DNA of 21,066 bases from a virus: positions 1-21,066 of IMG/VR virus record IMGVR_UViG_3300008262_000591. One strand, given 5' to 3'. Both the position numbers and the translations under genes were made by a program. The notes under the pieces were generated by a model. The model was given only the letters and a program-made list of their open reading frames with translations, was not told the DNA's origin and made no database searches. Below, piece after piece: positions 2,551 to 21,066 of the stretch. Each line of letters begins with the position of its first letter. Position 1 is the stretch's first letter.

Positions 2551-3726
2551 TCAGGCAGGAGGAAGTTTTACTGGATTTGGTCCAGTCATACGATCATAGA
2601 TTTTTTGTGCTCTAGGGTCCTTTAACTTTTGTCCTTTGTCCCAAGTTGCTTTTTGTGCTGTATTCATTGGAACTTCTTGCTCAAGAATAGACTGAACCAT
2701 CTCCTCATTCATTTGAGACATGACATATAGTGCTTCAGCATTAGTATCGGCATGTCCATTGGTGATGAGATATTCAAGAACTAAATCCCAATTATCCATT
2801 TCATAATGTGCCTTTTGAACGGGAAGAGATGCTCCCGAACCACCCATCCTCTTAATCGCAGCACCAGCAGCACCTGACTCTGGACCAGAAGTTCTATCTC
2901 TTAATTCAGTTGCTTTATTAATTTTTTGCTGCTGTCTATGTCCTGCTGGATTAATATCAAAACTTGCCTCATCAACCATTTTACCTTCTGGTTCAAAAGA
3001 ATTTCTCAGACTATCAATTGCTTTCTGAGTCTGTTGATTTCTCTGTTGTAGTTTACCAGCAACGCCTTTTGCTTTATCATAAACTTGTTTGCCAGCAAGA
3101 GCTGTCCCAGCAGCAAGAGCTGCTCTAACGCCAAGACCTACTAGTGGTGCCATCTCATCAACTTGCTGAACATCTTCACCAAGTCTTGAAGCGGCTCCTG
3201 CTGCCTTCTGAGCGACCTTTCCAACCGCCCCTGCTGCCTTACGGAGACCCTTTCCAATCAGACTCTTAACACCACTCTTGACTTGCTCTTTCTTCTTCTG
3301 AGCGCCGTAGGAGATCTTGTGAGTGGCAGTTCTTGCTGCTCTTCTAGCGGTGTCCTTAGCGACTGAGGCAGCGATACTAGCACCTGCAGCTGCACCTGCT
3401 GCCTTTGCCTTAGCGCGTCCTACAGCGGTCTTTACTGCTGCTTTACGGGCTGCTGCTTTCTTTTCACCAACCTTAGTCTTTGCTCTTTCACGTCTTTGCT
3501 CTGGGCTTTCAGTATCACTACCATAAGTGACTTTTGCCTCATCGATGAATAAAAACGCTGCGTTCTCTACAGCAGTGGCTGCCTCATCAAGAGTGTATCC
3601 AAACTCCACACACTCTTCAACAAGTTCTTCTACGATCTCTTCAATCATTTCACATGAGATTCCATCTGCTTCTTCATAGATGTCTTGATAAGAATCATAT
3701 AATGCTTTTAAATCAGATCCTAACAT
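2551..3726 (-). CDS. Histone-H1-like Ala/Lys-rich protein, candidate internal virion protein
   Basis: A 391-residue protein in distinct blocks. Residues 1-65 are acidic and helical (EEIVEELVEECVEFGYTLDEA, then FIDEAKVTYG). Residues 75-190 are a highly basic Ala/Lys/Arg-rich block (KKAAARKAAVK, GRAKAKAAGAAAGAS), resembling histone H1 tails. Residues 244-254 carry FEPEG..VDEA, and about 311-350 hold a helical module (LVLEYLITNGHAD, MSQMNEEMVQSILE). LDE|A (46-49) and IDE|A (61-64) fit the T4 prohead protease gp21 cleavage rule ([L/I]xE before A/G/S), so removal of the acidic leader during head maturation is plausible. A perfect TATAAATA late promoter lies about 30 bases upstream and terminators lie on both sides, making it a single-gene late unit. 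The virion role is inference. Confidence 0.8.
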   Translation of the reverse strand: MLGSDLKALYDSYQDIYEEADGISCEMIEEIVEELVEECVEFGYTLDEAATAVENAAFLFIDEAKVTYGSDTESPEQRRERAKTKVGEKKAAARKAAVKTAVGRAKAKAAGAAAGASIAASVAKDTARRAARTATHKISYGAQKKKEQVKSGVKSLIGKGLRKAAGAVGKVAQKAAGAASRLGEDVQQVDEMAPLVGLGVRAALAAGTALAGKQVYDKAKGVAGKLQQRNQQTQKAIDSLRNSFEPEGKMVDEASFDINPAGHRQQQKINKATELRDRTSGPESGAAGAAIKRMGGSGASLPVQKAHYEMDNWDLVLEYLITNGHADTNAEALYVMSQMNEEMVQSILEQEVPMNTAQKATWDKGQKLKDPRAQKIYDRMTGPNPVKLPPA

Positions 3727-14619: not shown

Positions 14620-15032
14620 CGGTCGTCAGCGGCACGATTTTCAGAGAAGTAAACATCAAACGCACCCTCAGGATAACGCTTGAGAAGTTTTTGCACATTA
14701 CGAGCAACCACATCATCAAGGGTCACTTCAAGAGCCATACAGGCTTGGGCAACATACCACATAATATCACCCAGTTCAATAATCATATGTTCCCGATTAT
14801 CTTCATTGAATGGTTTGCCTTGGAAGATCATTTTCTTGACGATTTCCATAAACTCACCACCTTCGGCATTGATACCAACGGCAGCAGTCAGGAGTCGTTC
14901 AATATTAGCACCTTTCTCATCGAGTGCGACAAGACGATCAGAAAGAGAAAGAAAGTCTTTGGATGCATCAGAAGTTACAGCATCCACAAACTCAGCATAC
15001 TTATCAAAATTAACGTGTCTAGCGGTTTCCAT
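14616..15032 (-). CDS. mazG: MazG-like nucleotide pyrophosphohydrolase
   Basis: A 138-residue member of the all-alpha NTP pyrophosphatase family, which hydrolyses (d)NTPs to NMP and pyrophosphate. In cyanophages it has been suggested to alter host (p)ppGpp signalling or recycle nucleotides. The metal-binding pattern is visible as AEGGEFMEIVKKM (E57, E60, E63) and, after about 23 residues, IIELGDIMWYVAQ (E86, D89). The tail RNVQKLLKRYPEGAF is typical. Single-domain length matches phage MazG. TAATG overlap with the gp41 stop and ATGA overlap with the following small ORF tie it to the replication operon. Confidence 0.92.
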   Translation of the reverse strand: METARHVNFDKYAEFVDAVTSDASKDFLSLSDRLVALDEKGANIERLLTAAVGINAEGGEFMEIVKKMIFQGKPFNEDNREHMIIELGDIMWYVAQACMALEVTLDDVVARNVQKLLKRYPEGAFDVYFSENRAADDR

Positions 15033-16408
15033 TAAAATTTAAATCCTTCAAACGACTTTTTGGGTTTCTTGTCCTCATCATTATACTCGTCATCTTGTCC
15101 AGAGTCAAGTATGTCCTTTTGAGCAGTTTGCTCACAATCATACAACCTCATCTTTGCCCTGTCAATACCCACAATAAAACGTTTGTAGATCGTAGGGTCA
15201 TTGTATCTGTTCTTCAGTTGCTTCACCATAATCTGCCCAAGTGCCTCCAACTCTTCAGTGCTAATAAGGGCAAACATAAGATCAGCAGTAGCAGGGAGAC
15301 CAAAGGACTCAGAAGTATCAGTAAGTTCAACATCGCTATTGCCATAACCTGAACGAGTGGTCTGAGTAGCGGAGACAATTGGGACATTAAACTCGACGGC
15401 GAGCCCCCTAAGTTCTTCAGCAATTGCTTTAATATATGAATATGAATTGACAGAACTGTTTGCCTTATGCCTAGAGGAAGCACATATATTAAGGTAATCA
15501 ATGAAAATAATATCAGGTCTAAATGACTTCTTAAGTGCCAACTCATTAAGCAGTGCCTTAAAGTGTCCACTATGGGCAGAGGCAGTAGGATACTCTTTAA
15601 TTATAAGAGTTCCTTGCGTTTTCTTTGAGATGTTTGTGACTTTGTTCTCAAACATCTGGCGTGGTAAATCAACCAATTGCTGAATCGGAACATTGAGAAG
15701 GTTTGCATCAATTCTTTCTGCAATTCTCTCTTCCGCCATTTCAAGAGTGATATAGAGTACGGACCTGCCCTGTAACAAGACGGAGCTAGCCAGATGACAC
15801 ATAAACAGTGATTTCCCAACACCCGTTCCAGCGAGAGCAATATTGAGAGTCTTGTTAGGTAGACCACCTTTCGTGATTTTGTTGAAATATTCCAGATCAA
15901 ACTCAATCTTATCTTCTTTGCGGTGGTAAAATTCATATCGCTCCTCATAGTTCTGAAGATAGTCGTGACCGATATTATTATCAAAACTTACCGCAAGAGC
16001 ATCAGAAAGAATTGATGGAATGGCATCACGATTCTTCTTTTCATTATTTCCATCAGCAATATGGATTGATTCCATAAGTGCCAAGTAAATGGCACGATCA
16101 CGGCACCACTTTTCAGTTGTGTCCAACAACCATTGCTTATCTACAACAGAATCATTCAGAGATTTATTAATTTCTCGGATTTCTTTGATTTGATCTTCCG
16201 TTAAGTCAGTGCGATTCTCTACCTCAATATTGAGTGCTTCAATGGTAATTGCTGAACCATACTTAACAATGAACTGGACAATCTCTTCAAAAATGACCTT
16301 CTCGGTCTTTTGCTCAAAATAATCTGGTTGAATGAAAGGTATAACCTTGCGTGAGTAGTCTTCATTAAATACTAGGTTTCTGAGAATGGTTGTCTCAATT
16401 CGTTCCAT
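15032..16408 (-). CDS. 41: Replicative DNA helicase (T4 gp41 type)
   Basis: A 458-residue DnaB-family helicase that unwinds DNA at the phage fork and recruits the gp61 primase. The N-terminal helical domain (1-145) is followed by the RecA-like motor: Walker A GTGVGKS at about 194-200, LYITLEMAEE, Walker B DIIFIDYLN at about 299-307, and the H3/H4 region VPIVSATQTTRSG. The acidic C-terminal tail (DDEYNDEDKKPKK) may bind partners. I start it at ATG 16408 (MERIETTILRNLVF), which aligns with the T4 N terminus MVEIILSHLIF. An in-frame ATG at 16435 is possible. It overlaps the uvsX end by 14 bases. Confidence 0.94.
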   Translation of the reverse strand: MERIETTILRNLVFNEDYSRKVIPFIQPDYFEQKTEKVIFEEIVQFIVKYGSAITIEALNIEVENRTDLTEDQIKEIREINKSLNDSVVDKQWLLDTTEKWCRDRAIYLALMESIHIADGNNEKKNRDAIPSILSDALAVSFDNNIGHDYLQNYEERYEFYHRKEDKIEFDLEYFNKITKGGLPNKTLNIALAGTGVGKSLFMCHLASSVLLQGRSVLYITLEMAEERIAERIDANLLNVPIQQLVDLPRQMFENKVTNISKKTQGTLIIKEYPTASAHSGHFKALLNELALKKSFRPDIIFIDYLNICASSRHKANSSVNSYSYIKAIAEELRGLAVEFNVPIVSATQTTRSGYGNSDVELTDTSESFGLPATADLMFALISTEELEALGQIMVKQLKNRYNDPTIYKRFIVGIDRAKMRLYDCEQTAQKDILDSGQDDEYNDEDKKPKKSFEGFKF

Positions 16409-17402
16409 AAGAGAATTGTTGTTTCGCGGCAGCATCAAGTTGCTGCATTACTTCTTCGGTAAAATATTCTTCAGGATTAGCAAGAATTTGTTTTGCATAA
16501 ATTTTCTTGCCATCCATTTCATAACGGCCCGCGACATTTTTCCAGAGTCCAGCGAGTTCCCCGAGTTCCAGAAGACCATAATAGCGATCAAGACCGCGCT
16601 CATCATAAAATAGACGGATTTCAACTTGCTGGTTCTCCTTACTCAGACGCGACTTAGCAGTCTTTGCCTTGATAATGTTTCCAATAACTTCTTTTCCATC
16701 TTTCTCTTTTGACTTGCTGAGATAGATGATAGTAGAAGCGGCATACTTAAGACCACTACCACCACCCATTTCTTTTGTAGGAACGTAAGCGCCAATAACA
16801 TCGTAGGTGTGGTTAGTTACAATCATAGGAATATTTGCCTGCCCCAACTTCAGAGTGAGCATACGGAATGCACCTTTGACCAGTTGTGATTTGGTCATAT
16901 CACGAACTTGTTTGTCGTTCAGTGCATCAGTAATTTCTTTTTCGGTAGAAAGCATACCTAAAGAGTCTAACACAAACATGCAGGGTTTGCGTTCTCCTTC
17001 AGGTTTTTTTAAGTATATGTCTACGGCTTTAAGTGCCTTTCCGCGAAACTCTTCAATAGTAACAACATTAACAACCACAAGACGAGAAGTATCAATTCCA
17101 CGAGATTCTAGAAGAGATTTAGTGATAGCAGCCTCAGTGTCAAAGTAGAGACAGTAACCATCGGGATGAGTATCAAGAAAATTCTTAACCACGGCGAGAG
17201 AGAAAAAAGTCTTTCCAGTAGAAGACTCTCCAGCAATAGCAGTAATTTTATTCCCAGATACACCACCAAATATGCTACCTGAAACCAGTGCATTAAAAAT
17301 GTATGAACCCGTATCAACATAAGTCTCAGTCTCATCAATATCAGAGGCAAGTTTGGTATACTCACCGCCAACTTCTTTTACAATTTCTTTAAGGAAATCC
17401 AT
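16395..17402 (-). CDS. uvsX: UvsX recombinase (RecA/Rad51-like)
   Basis: A 335-residue strand-exchange ATPase that coats single-stranded DNA and drives homologous pairing for repair and recombination-dependent replication. Walker A is GESSTGKT at about 58-65, Walker B CMFVLDSLGM at about 141-150, and the region MIVTNHTYDVIGAYVPTKEM corresponds to the DNA-binding loop area. The C-terminal part ends EEVMQQLDAAAKQQFSYG. The ATG at 17402 shares bases with the stop codon of the preceding 55-residue gene (TGATG overlap). Sequence and length match cyanophage UvsX; no truncation is seen. Confidence 0.95.
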   Translation of the reverse strand: MDFLKEIVKEVGGEYTKLASDIDETETYVDTGSYIFNALVSGSIFGGVSGNKITAIAGESSTGKTFFSLAVVKNFLDTHPDGYCLYFDTEAAITKSLLESRGIDTSRLVVVNVVTIEEFRGKALKAVDIYLKKPEGERKPCMFVLDSLGMLSTEKEITDALNDKQVRDMTKSQLVKGAFRMLTLKLGQANIPMIVTNHTYDVIGAYVPTKEMGGGSGLKYAASTIIYLSKSKEKDGKEVIGNIIKAKTAKSRLSKENQQVEIRLFYDERGLDRYYGLLELGELAGLWKNVAGRYEMDGKKIYAKQILANPEEYFTEEVMQQLDAAAKQQFSYGTN

Positions 17403-17569
17403 CAAGCTACCATCCCGTATTCTTCACGAAGTATTTTTTTATAAGGCAAACCTTGTTCTTTAAGTTCTTTTACCAATTTAAGTTTTTGATATAAAGCAGT
17501 GTCTCCACCAAGAGCCATTGCATTAATAATTGTATTCAATTCTTCATCATTAATAGGTAAATCCATCAT
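17402..17569 (-). CDS. Small protein between gp43 and uvsX
   Basis: A 55-residue helical protein (MMDLPINDEELNTIINAMAL ... ending REEYGMVA). Two consecutive ATG codons (17569 and 17566) could serve as start; the first overlaps the polymerase stop codon (ATGA). The stop overlaps the uvsX ATG. It is acidic at the N terminus and Lys-rich in the middle (YQKLKLVKELKEQG). Its tight coupling between polymerase and recombinase suggests a replication or recombination accessory, but no function is known to me. Confidence 0.78.
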   Translation of the reverse strand: MMDLPINDEELNTIINAMALGGDTALYQKLKLVKELKEQGLPYKKILREEYGMVA

Positions 17570-20067
17570 GCAAAAAATAGTTCAAGGTTTACAGTTTTTT
17601 CTATATTCCATCCAATCACATCAAGAATTGATTTGAGTGGATCAATAAAACTCTTTTCAAATTGTAGTTCATAGTCAATGTATTTGTCAAGACCAAGTTC
17701 TTTAGGAAAATCTTGAATAAATGAAATGACATTCTCTTGGATAATATTTGGTTTTTTAAGAAAAATATATTTAACTTTCTCACCATTTGAAATGAGTGAA
17801 TACTTATTAGTTAATTTTTTTTCTTTTACATAGTGATTGAACAAAAGAGCACCACGAATATGAATAGGGGTTTTATGGGCGTAAATAGTTGATGAAGCGG
17901 CGTATTTGCGGACATCAGATGCTGTGCGAGGAAACGCAATTTGTTCTGGAGGAAGAGATTTAAATTCTGTTCTACACTTATCAATAAATGCAATTACATC
18001 TTCTTCGGTTCCACTCATCATCAACTTAAGTCCATCCTTAATCATCTTACGGCAAGGAGCAGGAGTTGAAGATTTAATTGCCTCAATGCCCATGATCTTG
18101 AGTTTGGGTTCTTCATAGCGAACACCTTCACTATCCCAGACATTTAAGATATAACGCTTCTTGGCAGTCCAGATTCCACGCTCGGCAATGTTCTCACGCT
18201 TCATCTGCATCTTCTGGTCATAAGCATTCACATACGTCGCCAGTTCTTCGTAGCAACCTTCAATATATTTTTCAAGTTCCATTCGACACACCTTATCAAG
18301 GAAAGAAACAATGTTCGTAGTAGTTGTCTCTCTCCCCTTGTATACACTTTGTACCAAAGGACCCATATTAAGATAAATGGAGTCAGTATCAGAAGCAATG
18401 ACATAATCAACCTCATTTGTTTTAAGAATTTTGTTTAGATAGGCATTCATCTTGTTCTCGATCCAACGAATCGAAACCTGACCAGACAAGGTGATTGCCT
18501 CAGCATTTGCTAGTTTATAATACCTAAAGTATTGGTTTCCGATAGCACCATAAGCAGAGTTTAACTGAATCTTACGTGCCATCTGAATGTTATTGCACCT
18601 GGCAATCTCTTTTACCAATTCTTTGTTTTTAGTTTTCTCATACTCTTGCTTTGCCGCGAGCATTTTCTTTTTGTAAATAGTGCGGTCCTGATAGATCTTC
18701 TCCATCAGTTCAGGCAAGAATCCACGCACATCTTTACGGAACATTGCTCCATTAGCACAGACTGCCTTGTCCTTATACAACTCAAAAGTAAGATCTTGAT
18801 TCAAAATCTTATCGACATTTACTGTTGGATGCTTCTCATCCAACAGAGTTTCTGGCGATATGTTGTATTGCATAATGAGGTGAGGGTATAGCGAGTTGAG
18901 GTCAAAAGACACAACCCAGTCATACTTTCCAGGAATAGGTTCTTTAACATAAGCACCAGCATACTTTGAATCCTTATCTGATTTTTCTTTGGGAGGAATA
19001 ACAATGTTCCTCTTTTTCAAATAGTTGTAGATAATGGTATCCCACATTCTCACCTGATAAAACACATCTTCAAAGTTTACCTTTGCGTCATATGCCATTG
19101 TGAGAGCAAGTTCAATCAGTTTCATCTTATCTTCCAGCCGGTCAACAAGTTCCACGTCTTTGATGTTGTACTCTACAAACTTTTGCCAACCATTTGTGTA
19201 AAAGTCTTTGAAAGTATCAAACTCAGAGTGATCCAGTTTCTTCTGCCCAAGTTCCACATTTGCAATGTGATCCAGTCGATATGATTCCTGATTGGTATAA
19301 GTAAACTTCTTATACAGATCAAGATAGTCTAATTGTGAGATTCCACCAATATCATATGAAAGATATTTGCGACCAGAAATGTATGTTTCTTCCTCGGTTA
19401 CAAGACCCCATGGAGACATACGTTTCATCAACTTTTCACCAAGAACGCGATCCAAACGACGAACAATATATGGAATATCGTAAAGTTTACTATTCCAACC
19501 AGTAATAACTTCTGGAGTATTCTCTTCAATCATCCACCAGTTGATGAAATCACTTAGGAGATCATACTCATTATTAAATCTTTTGTAATAGACATTACCT
19601 TGATTTAATTTGAATGGACCTTGACCCCAAGTAATAATTTCTTTTGTAGAATAATCTTGAATAGTAATGAGCAAAATTTCTTCTGCTGCAGATTCTACGT
19701 CGGGAAATCCATTTTCAGATGCAACCTCAATATCAAGAGTTGAGAGTTTGATTTTATTGATATCAAACTTCATCTCTTCTTCAGGATAAGTTTCGGATAT
19801 GTATTGGTAGATAAATCTTTCGTTTCCGTAGATTTTGAATCCCTCTACACCATCATATTTCTTAAGAAAATCTCTAGACTCACGAACAGATCCTGGTTGA
19901 ATTGCTTCAACATACTCACCACTCAAAGTTTGGTATTTGGTTTGCTTTTTAGCAGGGACAAAAAGAGTTGGAGAAAATTTCTCTCGTGTCATGAAATGCT
20001 TTCCATTTTCATATCCACGAACTAAGAAATGATCCCCAACCATCTGAACGTTTGTATAAAATCGCAT
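17566..20067 (-). CDS. 43: DNA polymerase, family B (T4 gp43 type)
   Basis: An 833-residue replicative polymerase with 3'-5' proofreading, slightly shorter than T4 gp43 (898). The exonuclease motifs are complete: STLDIEVAS (D112, E114), ITGWNSKLYDIPY (N192, D197) and YNIKDVELVD (D304). The polymerase motifs are complete: A, SFDLNSLYP (D389); B, ARKIQLNSAYGAIG (K499, N503, Y506, G507); C, IASDTDSIY (D560, D562). The Ala-Lys-rich tail and C-terminal clamp-binding segment (ending ..EKTVNLELFFA) fit the family. ATG 20067 shares bases with the previous stop (TAATG) and the stop overlaps the next ATG. No intein or intron splits it. Confidence 0.97.
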   Translation of the reverse strand: MRFYTNVQMVGDHFLVRGYENGKHFMTREKFSPTLFVPAKKQTKYQTLSGEYVEAIQPGSVRESRDFLKKYDGVEGFKIYGNERFIYQYISETYPEEEMKFDINKIKLSTLDIEVASENGFPDVESAAEEILLITIQDYSTKEIITWGQGPFKLNQGNVYYKRFNNEYDLLSDFINWWMIEENTPEVITGWNSKLYDIPYIVRRLDRVLGEKLMKRMSPWGLVTEEETYISGRKYLSYDIGGISQLDYLDLYKKFTYTNQESYRLDHIANVELGQKKLDHSEFDTFKDFYTNGWQKFVEYNIKDVELVDRLEDKMKLIELALTMAYDAKVNFEDVFYQVRMWDTIIYNYLKKRNIVIPPKEKSDKDSKYAGAYVKEPIPGKYDWVVSFDLNSLYPHLIMQYNISPETLLDEKHPTVNVDKILNQDLTFELYKDKAVCANGAMFRKDVRGFLPELMEKIYQDRTIYKKKMLAAKQEYEKTKNKELVKEIARCNNIQMARKIQLNSAYGAIGNQYFRYYKLANAEAITLSGQVSIRWIENKMNAYLNKILKTNEVDYVIASDTDSIYLNMGPLVQSVYKGRETTTTNIVSFLDKVCRMELEKYIEGCYEELATYVNAYDQKMQMKRENIAERGIWTAKKRYILNVWDSEGVRYEEPKLKIMGIEAIKSSTPAPCRKMIKDGLKLMMSGTEEDVIAFIDKCRTEFKSLPPEQIAFPRTASDVRKYAASSTIYAHKTPIHIRGALLFNHYVKEKKLTNKYSLISNGEKVKYIFLKKPNIIQENVISFIQDFPKELGLDKYIDYELQFEKSFIDPLKSILDVIGWNIEKTVNLELFFA

Positions 20068-20330
20068 TATGCAGTTAATTCAAAATATTTGGAAAGTAAA
20101 TCCTCAGTTGGATCTACAATTGTCAGTATACTATCAGAATGAATCATAAATTCAGTCTGTAAACTAAAAGTAATCCAGGGTTCTAAAATAAAAGAATCAG
20201 AACGCTCTACAAGTTTAAATGGTTTAACTAGTTTGCAATCTGGTTCACCCAATTCAGAACCAACTTCGATAACTTCAGTAATTAAAATTGTGTCATTCTT
20301 CAGTAGAAGACACTTGATCGTCTGTTCCAT
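20067..20330 (-). CDS. Small beta-rich protein, paralogue of the preceding gene product
   Basis: An 87-residue protein (MEQTIKCLLLKNDTILITEV ...). It resembles the product of the gene at 20293-20784 throughout: an initial strand with LLLKN/LLQSG, KPFKL/KPFLV, a central EPWITF/GPWILL, and TIVDPTEDLLSKYFE/TIVDPIESLEAMYLE. It appears to be a diverged tandem duplicate lacking the Pro/Gln-rich C-terminal extension. I chose ATG 20330 over an in-frame TTG upstream. It overlaps its paralogue by 38 bases and gp43 by one base. The short beta-barrel pattern recalls Sm-like folds, but this is a guess. Confidence 0.72.
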   Translation of the reverse strand: MEQTIKCLLLKNDTILITEVIEVGSELGEPDCKLVKPFKLVERSDSFILEPWITFSLQTEFMIHSDSILTIVDPTEDLLSKYFELTA

Positions 20331-20784
20331 CGGTGCTACCAAGATACATTTCTTTTAAAGATTCCAGTTCTTCTGGAGAGTATATTTGTGTGAGTTTCTC
20401 AAGATCTAAATTATTAAGATCAAGTTGTTCACGCAATTTTTGCATTTGATCATCACTTAAATTTGGAAGTCCTTTAGGTGCAGGTGGATTAGTCTTTTCC
20501 AAATACATTGCTTCCAGACTTTCAATGGGATCCACAATAGTTATAACATAACTATTTGGAACTGCAATTTCATCATTTGGAGTTAATAAAATCCAAGGAC
20601 CAAGAGTGATTTGAACTTTATCATCTTGTTCCCTATTTTCATCAGAAACCAAAAATGGTTTATTAATCGTAACTTTATGTGGTTTTTTAAACAGGTAAGC
20701 TACGGTCTTTTCTTCCGAAATTATCTCTCTGGCATCTGTGACAATTTGTTCACCAGATTGCAATAAAATTAATTTGATTGTCAT
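20293..20784 (-). CDS. Beta-rich protein of unknown function at the head of the replication operon
   Basis: A 163-residue protein starting MTIKLILLQSGEQIVTDARE. Residues 1-105 are beta-rich and shared with the next gene product. Residues 110-163 are a helical acidic extension (LSDDQMQKLREQL, SPEELESLKEMYLG) ending in a Ser/Thr/Glu tail. ATG 20784 is the first after a strong early promoter. The nearest Shine-Dalgarno (AAGGA) is 12 bases away and forms half of a small palindrome (20789-20801, AAGGA-TAT-TCCTT), so its access could be controlled. I recall similar proteins upstream of gp43 in cyanophages, without known function. Confidence 0.78.
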   Translation of the reverse strand: MTIKLILLQSGEQIVTDAREIISEEKTVAYLFKKPHKVTINKPFLVSDENREQDDKVQITLGPWILLTPNDEIAVPNSYVITIVDPIESLEAMYLEKTNPPAPKGLPNLSDDQMQKLREQLDLNNLDLEKLTQIYSPEELESLKEMYLGSTDGTDDQVSSTEE

Positions 20785-20806: not shown

Positions 20807-20835
20807 ACTATAGCAATAAAAAGGGGAGGTGTCAA
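20807..20835 (-). promoter_or_regulatory. Strong sigma70-type early promoter embedded in a terminator
   Basis: Minus strand: perfect TTGACA (20835-20830), a 17-base spacer, then TATAGT (20812-20807) preceded by TGC (extended -10). The -35 lies within the terminator hairpin and the T-tract forms the spacer. It would start the replication operon about 15 to 20 bases before ATG 20784. Confidence 0.78.
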
Positions 20836-20858
20836 CTGGATTTTGCCAGTTACCTCCC
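20814..20858 (-). terminator. Intrinsic terminator after hsp20
   Basis: Minus-strand GGGAGGT (20858-20852) pairs with ACCTCCC (20830-20824), with an inner ACTGG/CCAGT stem, then CTTTTTATT. A strong, GC-rich hairpin about 45 bases after the hsp20 stop codon. Confidence 0.88.
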
Positions 20859-20871
20859 GTGCGCCGACGAT

Positions 20872-20889
20872 ATCTAAATGTATTTAGAT
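20872..20889 (-). repeat. Perfect 18-base palindrome after hsp20
   Basis: ATCTAAAT - GT - ATTTAGAT. With only a 2-base centre it is better read as a possible protein-binding site than a hairpin. The minus strand contains TCTAAATA, the core of the variant motif seen at 10084 and 14248. Confidence 0.45.
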
Positions 20890-20904: not shown

Positions 20905-21066
20905 TTAAAGATAGTCCTTTCGTTTATGATGATCTGGAACAATTCGTCCCAGAGTAACTGTCAAAAGCCCATCCTCAAAATCAACTGATCGAACTTCCGT
21001 GTCGTCAGAGAGCGTCCATGCTCGTGTAAATGACCGTTGAGCCAGACCCTTGTGGAGATAATTGGT
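20905..21066 (-). CDS. hsp20: Hsp20-family small heat-shock protein, C-terminal fragment
   Basis: The last 53 residues of a protein that begins beyond the right edge. LAQRSFTRAWTLSDDTEVRS, followed by VDFEDGLLTVTLGRIVP, matches the end of an alpha-crystallin domain (GIAxRxFxRxFxL ... xxxxGLLxxxLxxxxP). It is followed by a short tail (DHHKRKDYL). Such IbpA-like chaperones are characteristic of T4-like cyanophages and are thought to protect host or phage proteins, or aid head assembly. A palindrome and a strong terminator follow its stop codon. Only the C-terminal part can be judged. Confidence 0.85.
   Translation of the reverse strand, partial: TNYLHKGLAQRSFTRAWTLSDDTEVRSVDFEDGLLTVTLGRIVPDHHKRKDYL

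Follow-up and report, generated by a model that had tools for sequence, protein, structure and literature searches.

Phage RNAs that pair with a noncoding RNA of the host have been described in prophages of E. coli O157, where the anti-sRNAs AgvB and AsxR are short, end at an intrinsic terminator and have host sRNAs as their targets (PMC4104026, PMC12197685). A phage factor aimed at 5S rRNA and the central protuberance has been reported from the jumbo phage PhiKZ, whose protein PhiKZ014 clamps the 5S terminus on the assembled 50S subunit early in infection, and what 5S rRNA does is still unclear (PMC10914614). In the phage family considered here, the noncoding CfrI antisense RNA of cyanophage S-PM2 is about 225 nt long and lies antisense, in cis, to psbA and to a gene for a homing endonuclease (PMC2984593, PMC5931967). 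The conserved structured PhotoRC-II, wcaG, manA and glnA RNAs of cyanophages are cis elements of 5' UTRs (PMC2864571, PMC9602691, PMC9964418). Early and late promoters that overlap have been proposed for the middle genes of RB49 and of S-PM2, with sigma-70-type and late-type motifs close to each other before replication genes (PMC2984593).

The element described here was analysed in a window of 21,066 nucleotides, which is the whole stretch taken from IMG/VR virus record IMGVR_UViG_3300008262_000591 (positions 1 to 21,066), and is shared with many other cyanophages. As in AgvB and AsxR, a short phage RNA with an intrinsic terminator is predicted to pair with a noncoding RNA of the host; its predicted target, however, is 5S rRNA instead of an sRNA, its seed co-varies with host rRNA, the phages are lytic and T4-like, and an Hfq requirement is no part of the reading. 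In contrast to PhiKZ014, the predicted factor is an RNA, antisense to internal 5S nucleotides and probably made late. CfrI is unrelated to the element in locus and sequence. A search of the element against Rfam 15 returned only a chance match to a nematode snoRNA and none to CfrI, PhotoRC-II, wcaG, manA or glnA RNAs. Unlike the overlapping promoters of RB49 and S-PM2, the two promoter motifs are here separated by a terminator. No viral or bacterial RNA described as targeting 5S rRNA by base pairing was found in our limited search of the open-access literature. We give a probability of roughly 0.7 to the reading that the element specifies a late phage small RNA pairing with host 5S rRNA, whose terminator has in most lineages become one with the replication-operon promoter.

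Results and discussion

The element occupies positions 20886-20807 of the minus strand, in the gap leading from hsp20 to the replication operon, where TAAATA is followed by CATTTA, GATATCGTCGGCGC, AC, GGGAGGT, AACTGG, CAAAAT, CCAGTT, GAC, ACCTCCC, C, TTTTT, ATTGC and TATAGT. The 3' end of hsp20 (20905..21066, minus strand; stop codon TAA at 20905-20907; PHROG 432 Hsp20, E = 1e-21) is cut by the window edge. An intrinsic terminator hairpin (20824..20858) is built of a covarying outer stem, GGGAGGT at 20858-20852 with ACCTCCC at 20830-20824, and an inner stem, AACTGG at 20851-20846 with CCAGTT at 20839-20834, together with the conserved apical loop CAAAAT (20845-20840) and a GAC bulge (20833-20831). 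The G+C-rich hairpin runs immediately into a U-tract (20818..20822), as expected of an intrinsic terminator, and the 116 nt stretch folded around it has a z-score of -2.5. Overlapping it is the best promoter-like site between 18000 and 21066, TTGACA-17-TGCTATAGT, a sigma-70-type promoter of the replication operon (20807..20835, minus strand) with its -35 TTGACA (20835-20830) within the 3' arm of the terminator and its -10 TATAGT (20812-20807) preceded by TGC. The T-tract lies within the 17 bp spacer. The site scores 11/12 plus the extended -10, in agreement with the sigma-70 extended -10 pattern (TTGACA, spacer of 17 +/- 1, TGnTATAAT).

A sequence-only reading of this DNA had proposed that a terminator behind hsp20 and an early promoter at the head of the replication operon share about 50 bases. 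The overlapping hairpin and promoter are indeed present, fold as described and recur in hundreds of T4-like cyanophages, and their overlap is conserved and tied to the operon, as detailed below. TTGACA, put by that reading on the loop side of the hairpin, is not in the apical loop: the hexamer begins in the last bases of the inner 3' arm, crosses the GAC bulge and ends on the first base of the outer one. Of the composite terminator/promoter as proposed, the sharing of bases is borne out, whereas the suggested mutual influence of hairpin and RNA polymerase is not supported. Host-like promoters were reportedly assigned to middle genes in a study of Syn9. The label 'early' given to the replication promoter is not established because the promoter classes published for these phages are unsettled (PMC2984593). 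The main part of the element, a header 5' of the hairpin consisting of TAAATA and AATATCGTCGNCGC, was missed by that reading.

In the window, this header comprises TAAATA (20881..20886, minus strand), a candidate -10 of a gp55-type late promoter, and GATATCGTCGGCGC (20861..20874, minus strand; consensus AATATCGTCGNCGC), which is the reverse complement of GCGCCG-type host 5S rRNA and the predicted 5' end and seed of a small RNA. The predicted RNA of 57 nt (20818..20874, minus strand), present as one copy per genome, would consist of an unpaired 5' seed, the terminator hairpin and a U-tract; in its predicted fold the first 16 nt are unpaired and the hairpin has an energy of -19.2 kcal/mol. A window-specific palindrome, ATCTAAAT-AC-ATTTAGAT (20872-20889), overlaps the seed at its start as well as the TAAATA box.

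Downstream on the minus strand, the operon begins with two short, conserved genes of no assigned function (20293..20778, protein MTIKLILLQSGEQ..., PHROG 431, E = 3e-21; and 20067..20342, PHROG 483), followed by DNA polymerase gp43 (17566..20067, PHROG 262, E = 0), UvsX recombinase (16395..17375, PHROG 97, E = 4e-101) and a gp41-type replicative helicase (15032..16438, PHROG 19, E = 8e-135). A PHROG 431 gene stands at the equivalent position in Bellamy, S-SM2 and S-CAM1.

Comparison of the junction by blastn revealed an 86-base stretch, exceeding the flagged site, that is conserved in about 100 cyanophages. With a consensus query, the element was matched in 325 phage records at 328 places, i.e. 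about once per record, nearly all of them cyanophages; a UvsX similar to that of the window is found in 474 records. Of 18 complete cyanophage (Kyanoviridae) genomes, 13 contained exact TATCGTCGNCGC a single time each, and a covariance model gave a single strong match in 15 of the 18 records. No convincing copy was found by either search in P-SSM2, P-SSM4 and P-HM2 among these genomes. A search for copies with Prochlorococcus-type seeds in P-SSM2, P-SSM4, P-HM1, P-HM2, MED4-213, P-RSM4 and P-TIM68 returned background matches only, and these Prochlorococcus phages are without a recognisable copy. The element pattern had 80 chance matches in 257 Gb of genomes, none of them with the right arm, and a host origin of the whole element was rejected, no match having been found in 386 cyanobacterial genomes.

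The copies are found at two alternative loci, either the junction of hsp20 and the gp43 operon (Bellamy, S-SM2, S-CAM1, S-SRM01) or the hli/psbA side (S-RIM8, S-ShM2, P-SSM7, S-RSM4). A wcaG or PhotoRC-II RNA lies near some of the psbA-side copies, none of them on the element (Rfam). In S-PM2 (about 124960) an hli gene stands immediately upstream of the element and the next gene, for a virion structural protein, is convergent with it, and therefore the RNA of the element would have no downstream cis target there. A conserved unannotated ORF of about 28 residues (e.g., MNFTTATLLLGTVSSLFSWAVLSPVLP) precedes the element at both the hsp20 locus and the psbA side (L003 about 2829-2912; L006 about 3264-3345; L002 about 2907-2990), looking as if it were co-mobile with it. 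In S-SCSM2R (L006, 3900-5450) a gene annotated as NdhD is placed between the element and the gp43 operon; the promoter of this copy is weakly matched, and the covariance model gives another, weak match just ahead of the operon.

Scans of IMG/VR anchored on different parts of the element separated the header and hairpin from an optional promoter. Of the 110 elements from the promoter-anchored scan, in which the upstream part was not required, 107 have TAAATA upstream and 97 have the left arm. The header was matched at 9 or more of 13 positions in 285 of 286 elements anchored on hairpin or promoter. The header-anchored set, on the other side, contained many copies with other terminator hairpins (ACCTGG/CCAGGT, CTCTGG/CCAGAG, TATGG/CCATA) and about 15 without the promoter. 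Header, covarying hairpin and T-tract occur together in more than 200 distinct copies, with or without the promoter, as a stand-alone unit would. Since these sequences are related, such counts of elements are not counts of independent events. A TTG..-10 promoter scoring at least 9/12 was found in 193 of 216 parsed elements (17 bp spacer in 184, TG in 175), and a promoter accompanies 161 of the 162 copies that precede the first gene of the operon vs 40 of 54 others (Fisher p = 1e-8).

The outer stem of the hairpin showed 91 double-changed cells in 90 sequences vs 33 in shuffles, and the apical loop (CAAAAT or CACAAT) is kept while the stems vary. The base at position 6 of the -35 goes with its partner in the stem: TTGACG (80), TTGACA (69) and TTGACT (32) are all common because stem pairing, not the promoter consensus, sets that base, the bulge-adjacent base and -35 position 6 forming C-G in 55, T-A in 52, A-T in 5 and the wobble T-G in 20 cases. 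Stem pairing often prevails over the -35 consensus.

The promoter linkage, the covarying stem and the kept T-tract are all what would be seen if the site were only the hsp20 terminator fused to the replication-operon promoter, a compact cis-regulatory junction with the header as an accessory cis signal. We regard this as unlikely, given that S-PM2, Syn9 and S-RSM4 carry header and terminator away from hsp20 and without any sigma-70 promoter, that the element occurs once where a general junction would be expected several times, and that neither its complementarity to host 5S rRNA nor the co-variation of the two would be explained. It is the header that accounts for the single-copy state, the mobility and the presence without a promoter. 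A copy that is both single and movable suggests action in trans, and a header and terminator that are single-copy, found at two loci and independent of the promoter have the anatomy of a small RNA of 53-61 nt. Folding of six copies predicts a 5' end largely free of pairing, with partial pairing in Bellamy alone, and a remainder that forms the terminator.

The order of a putative late promoter, a conserved initial transcribed region and a terminator also recalls the lambda pR'-qut-tR' module, in which case an antiterminator would let late polymerase read into downstream genes. Such an arrangement seems very improbable here: the convergent gene next to the S-PM2 copy leaves nothing to read into, and the tracking of host 5S would have no explanation.

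As for the start of the predicted small RNA, the distance from TAAATA to ATATCG is mostly constant at 7 nt (83 of 113), roughly the position expected of a T4-type late start. The box itself, a candidate for a TATAAATA-like box of T4-type late promoters that, as noted above, precedes nearly all elements collected without conditioning on it, fits the late promoter consensus NATAAATA published for S-PM2 (PMC2984593); the putative late promoter and the predicted start of the transcript are placed by a motif of six bases. The box and its mostly constant spacing speak against the most serious competitor, namely that the RNA is a fragment of the hsp20 or hli mRNA 3'-UTR, released when a nuclease, for instance RNase E, cuts close to UAAAUA, and still acts on 5S rRNA. 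We hold such processing to be a possible but less favoured origin, with which the position of the element immediately after a gene, whose stop codon it often overlaps, and the AU-rich character of UAAAUA would agree.

Over 13-14 nt the header is the reverse complement of host 5S rRNA. In 386 cyanobacterial genomes its reverse complement was found as one plus-strand and one minus-strand copy in many genomes of 2-3 Mb and as one copy in some of 1.7-1.9 Mb. The fetched regions, from genomes of picocyanobacterial size, are 23S-5S rRNA operons, with the site inside Rfam 5S rRNA. The host 5S reads GAAACGCAGCA GCGGCGACGAUAUU UGGGGGG and the phage RNA would start with AAUAUCGUCGCCGC; the conserved A that follows the header adds nothing to this pairing. 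By alignment by eye, we take the target to be about nt 67-80 of E. coli 5S, comprising junction loop A, helix V and loop E. The duplex of seed and matching host 5S is predicted at -25 to -29 kcal/mol, compared with about -12 to -16 for shuffled 5S. Both conserved complementarity to a target and compensatory variation were found, as expected of an unpaired seed. Antisense targets within the phage genomes showed no excess over a reversed-pattern control, no complement of the apical loop was found in a host 16S-23S-5S operon, and phage T4 contained no antisense to E. coli 5S within 2 mismatches. Two other uses of the match were considered and rejected: 5S rRNA as a replication primer, the pairing site being internal in 5S, and an integration site, the match being just 13-14 nt long with wobble-type variation.

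The variation of the header follows that of the host. Among 124 genomes the 5S site takes the form of eleven 14-mers that vary at 5 of 14 positions, and for each of the five positions that vary in the sampled Cyanobiaceae, phage seeds show a complementary or wobble change. Beyond C-to-T wobble and the edge base, header changes occur exactly at the paired positions 2, 6, 7, 9 and 11, and positions 5, 8 and 10 are invariant in both partners. At the N position of 285 headers G was found 141, C 97 and T 47 times; A, the sole base that pairs with neither host variant, was absent from all of them. Full pairing with a sampled 5S is possible for 253 of the 285, and the distinct headers together have 24 mismatches compared with a mean of 58 in randomised headers carrying equally many changes (none of 1000 trials this low). 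N = G is found in several phages isolated on Synechococcus WH7803; it would give one internal mismatch if the WH7803 5S is of the GCGGCG type and is a possible exception to the match of seed and host.

The substitutions are directional (C>T vs G>A 26:5, p = 0.003; A>G vs T>C 15:2, p = 0.002), and the excess of C>T and A>G fits RNA pairing that tolerates G-U. Identity at the DNA level would favour no such direction, and a header acting as a DNA site (protein binding, recombination or a replication origin), its 5S likeness being incidental or due to DNA homology, is accordingly given very little weight, for all that one copy per genome at alternative positions would suit it. Double changes of headers that match rare host 5S types, as ACTATCATCGCCGC does GCGGCGATGATAGT, point in the same direction. 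The headers ACTATCGTCGGCGC, ACTATCATCGCCGC and AATATCGTTGCCGC are each the perfect complement of a rarer host 5S type.

A prediction derived from the hosts also succeeded. The headers AATATCTTCGCCGC and AATATTTTCGCCGC were predicted beforehand from the 5S variants GCGGCGAAGATATT and GCGGCGAAAATATT, which come from small genomes, probably of Prochlorococcus. When ATATYTTYGCCGC was sought behind TAAATA, 26 stretches were obtained, 10 of which (6 unique) were complete elements with TAAATA, one of the predicted headers and a CTGGCAAAATCCAG-type hairpin; the remaining stretches were without the hairpin.

Taken as an RNA antisense to 5S, the element may act as follows. The phage late sigma factor gp55 would start a short RNA at the TAAATA box, with GAAUAUCG or an equivalent at its 5' end, and transcription would stop at the intrinsic terminator after 53-61 nt, as estimated from the six folded copies. 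The first 14 nt or so, unpaired or nearly so in predicted folds, would then pair with free or precursor 5S rRNA and compete with 5S folding and protein binding, so that in late infection the assembly of new ribosomes might be blocked or 5S exposed to decay. Access to the site is an assumption, because the target is largely structured in the mature ribosome. The terminator would end both read-through from hsp20 and the small RNA, and in most lineages its 3' arm doubles as the -35 region of the sigma-70-type promoter, so that replication transcripts would start from the same bases.

Conclusions

The shared terminator/promoter is best read as the 3' half of a small-RNA gene that viruses infecting cyanobacteria of the sea and of fresh water carry once per genome, a reading built on comparative sequence evidence. 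With slightly less confidence than for the RNA and its pairing as such, we consider it probable that most T4-like cyanophages encode one such RNA, aimed at the ribosome, with a 5' end antisense to host 5S and tracking its variation, and with a terminator that doubles as the replication promoter region. The element also shows how selection on a terminator and on a promoter holds the two to the same bases. An exact 5S antisense that changes in step with the host suggests that these viruses use an RNA to interfere with host ribosomes. If true, this would be an RNA-based route by which abundant aquatic viruses act on host ribosomes and would provide a natural probe of the role of 5S rRNA; and since the seed follows the 5S type of the host, it would also allow the lineage of the host to be predicted from the sequence of phage contigs.
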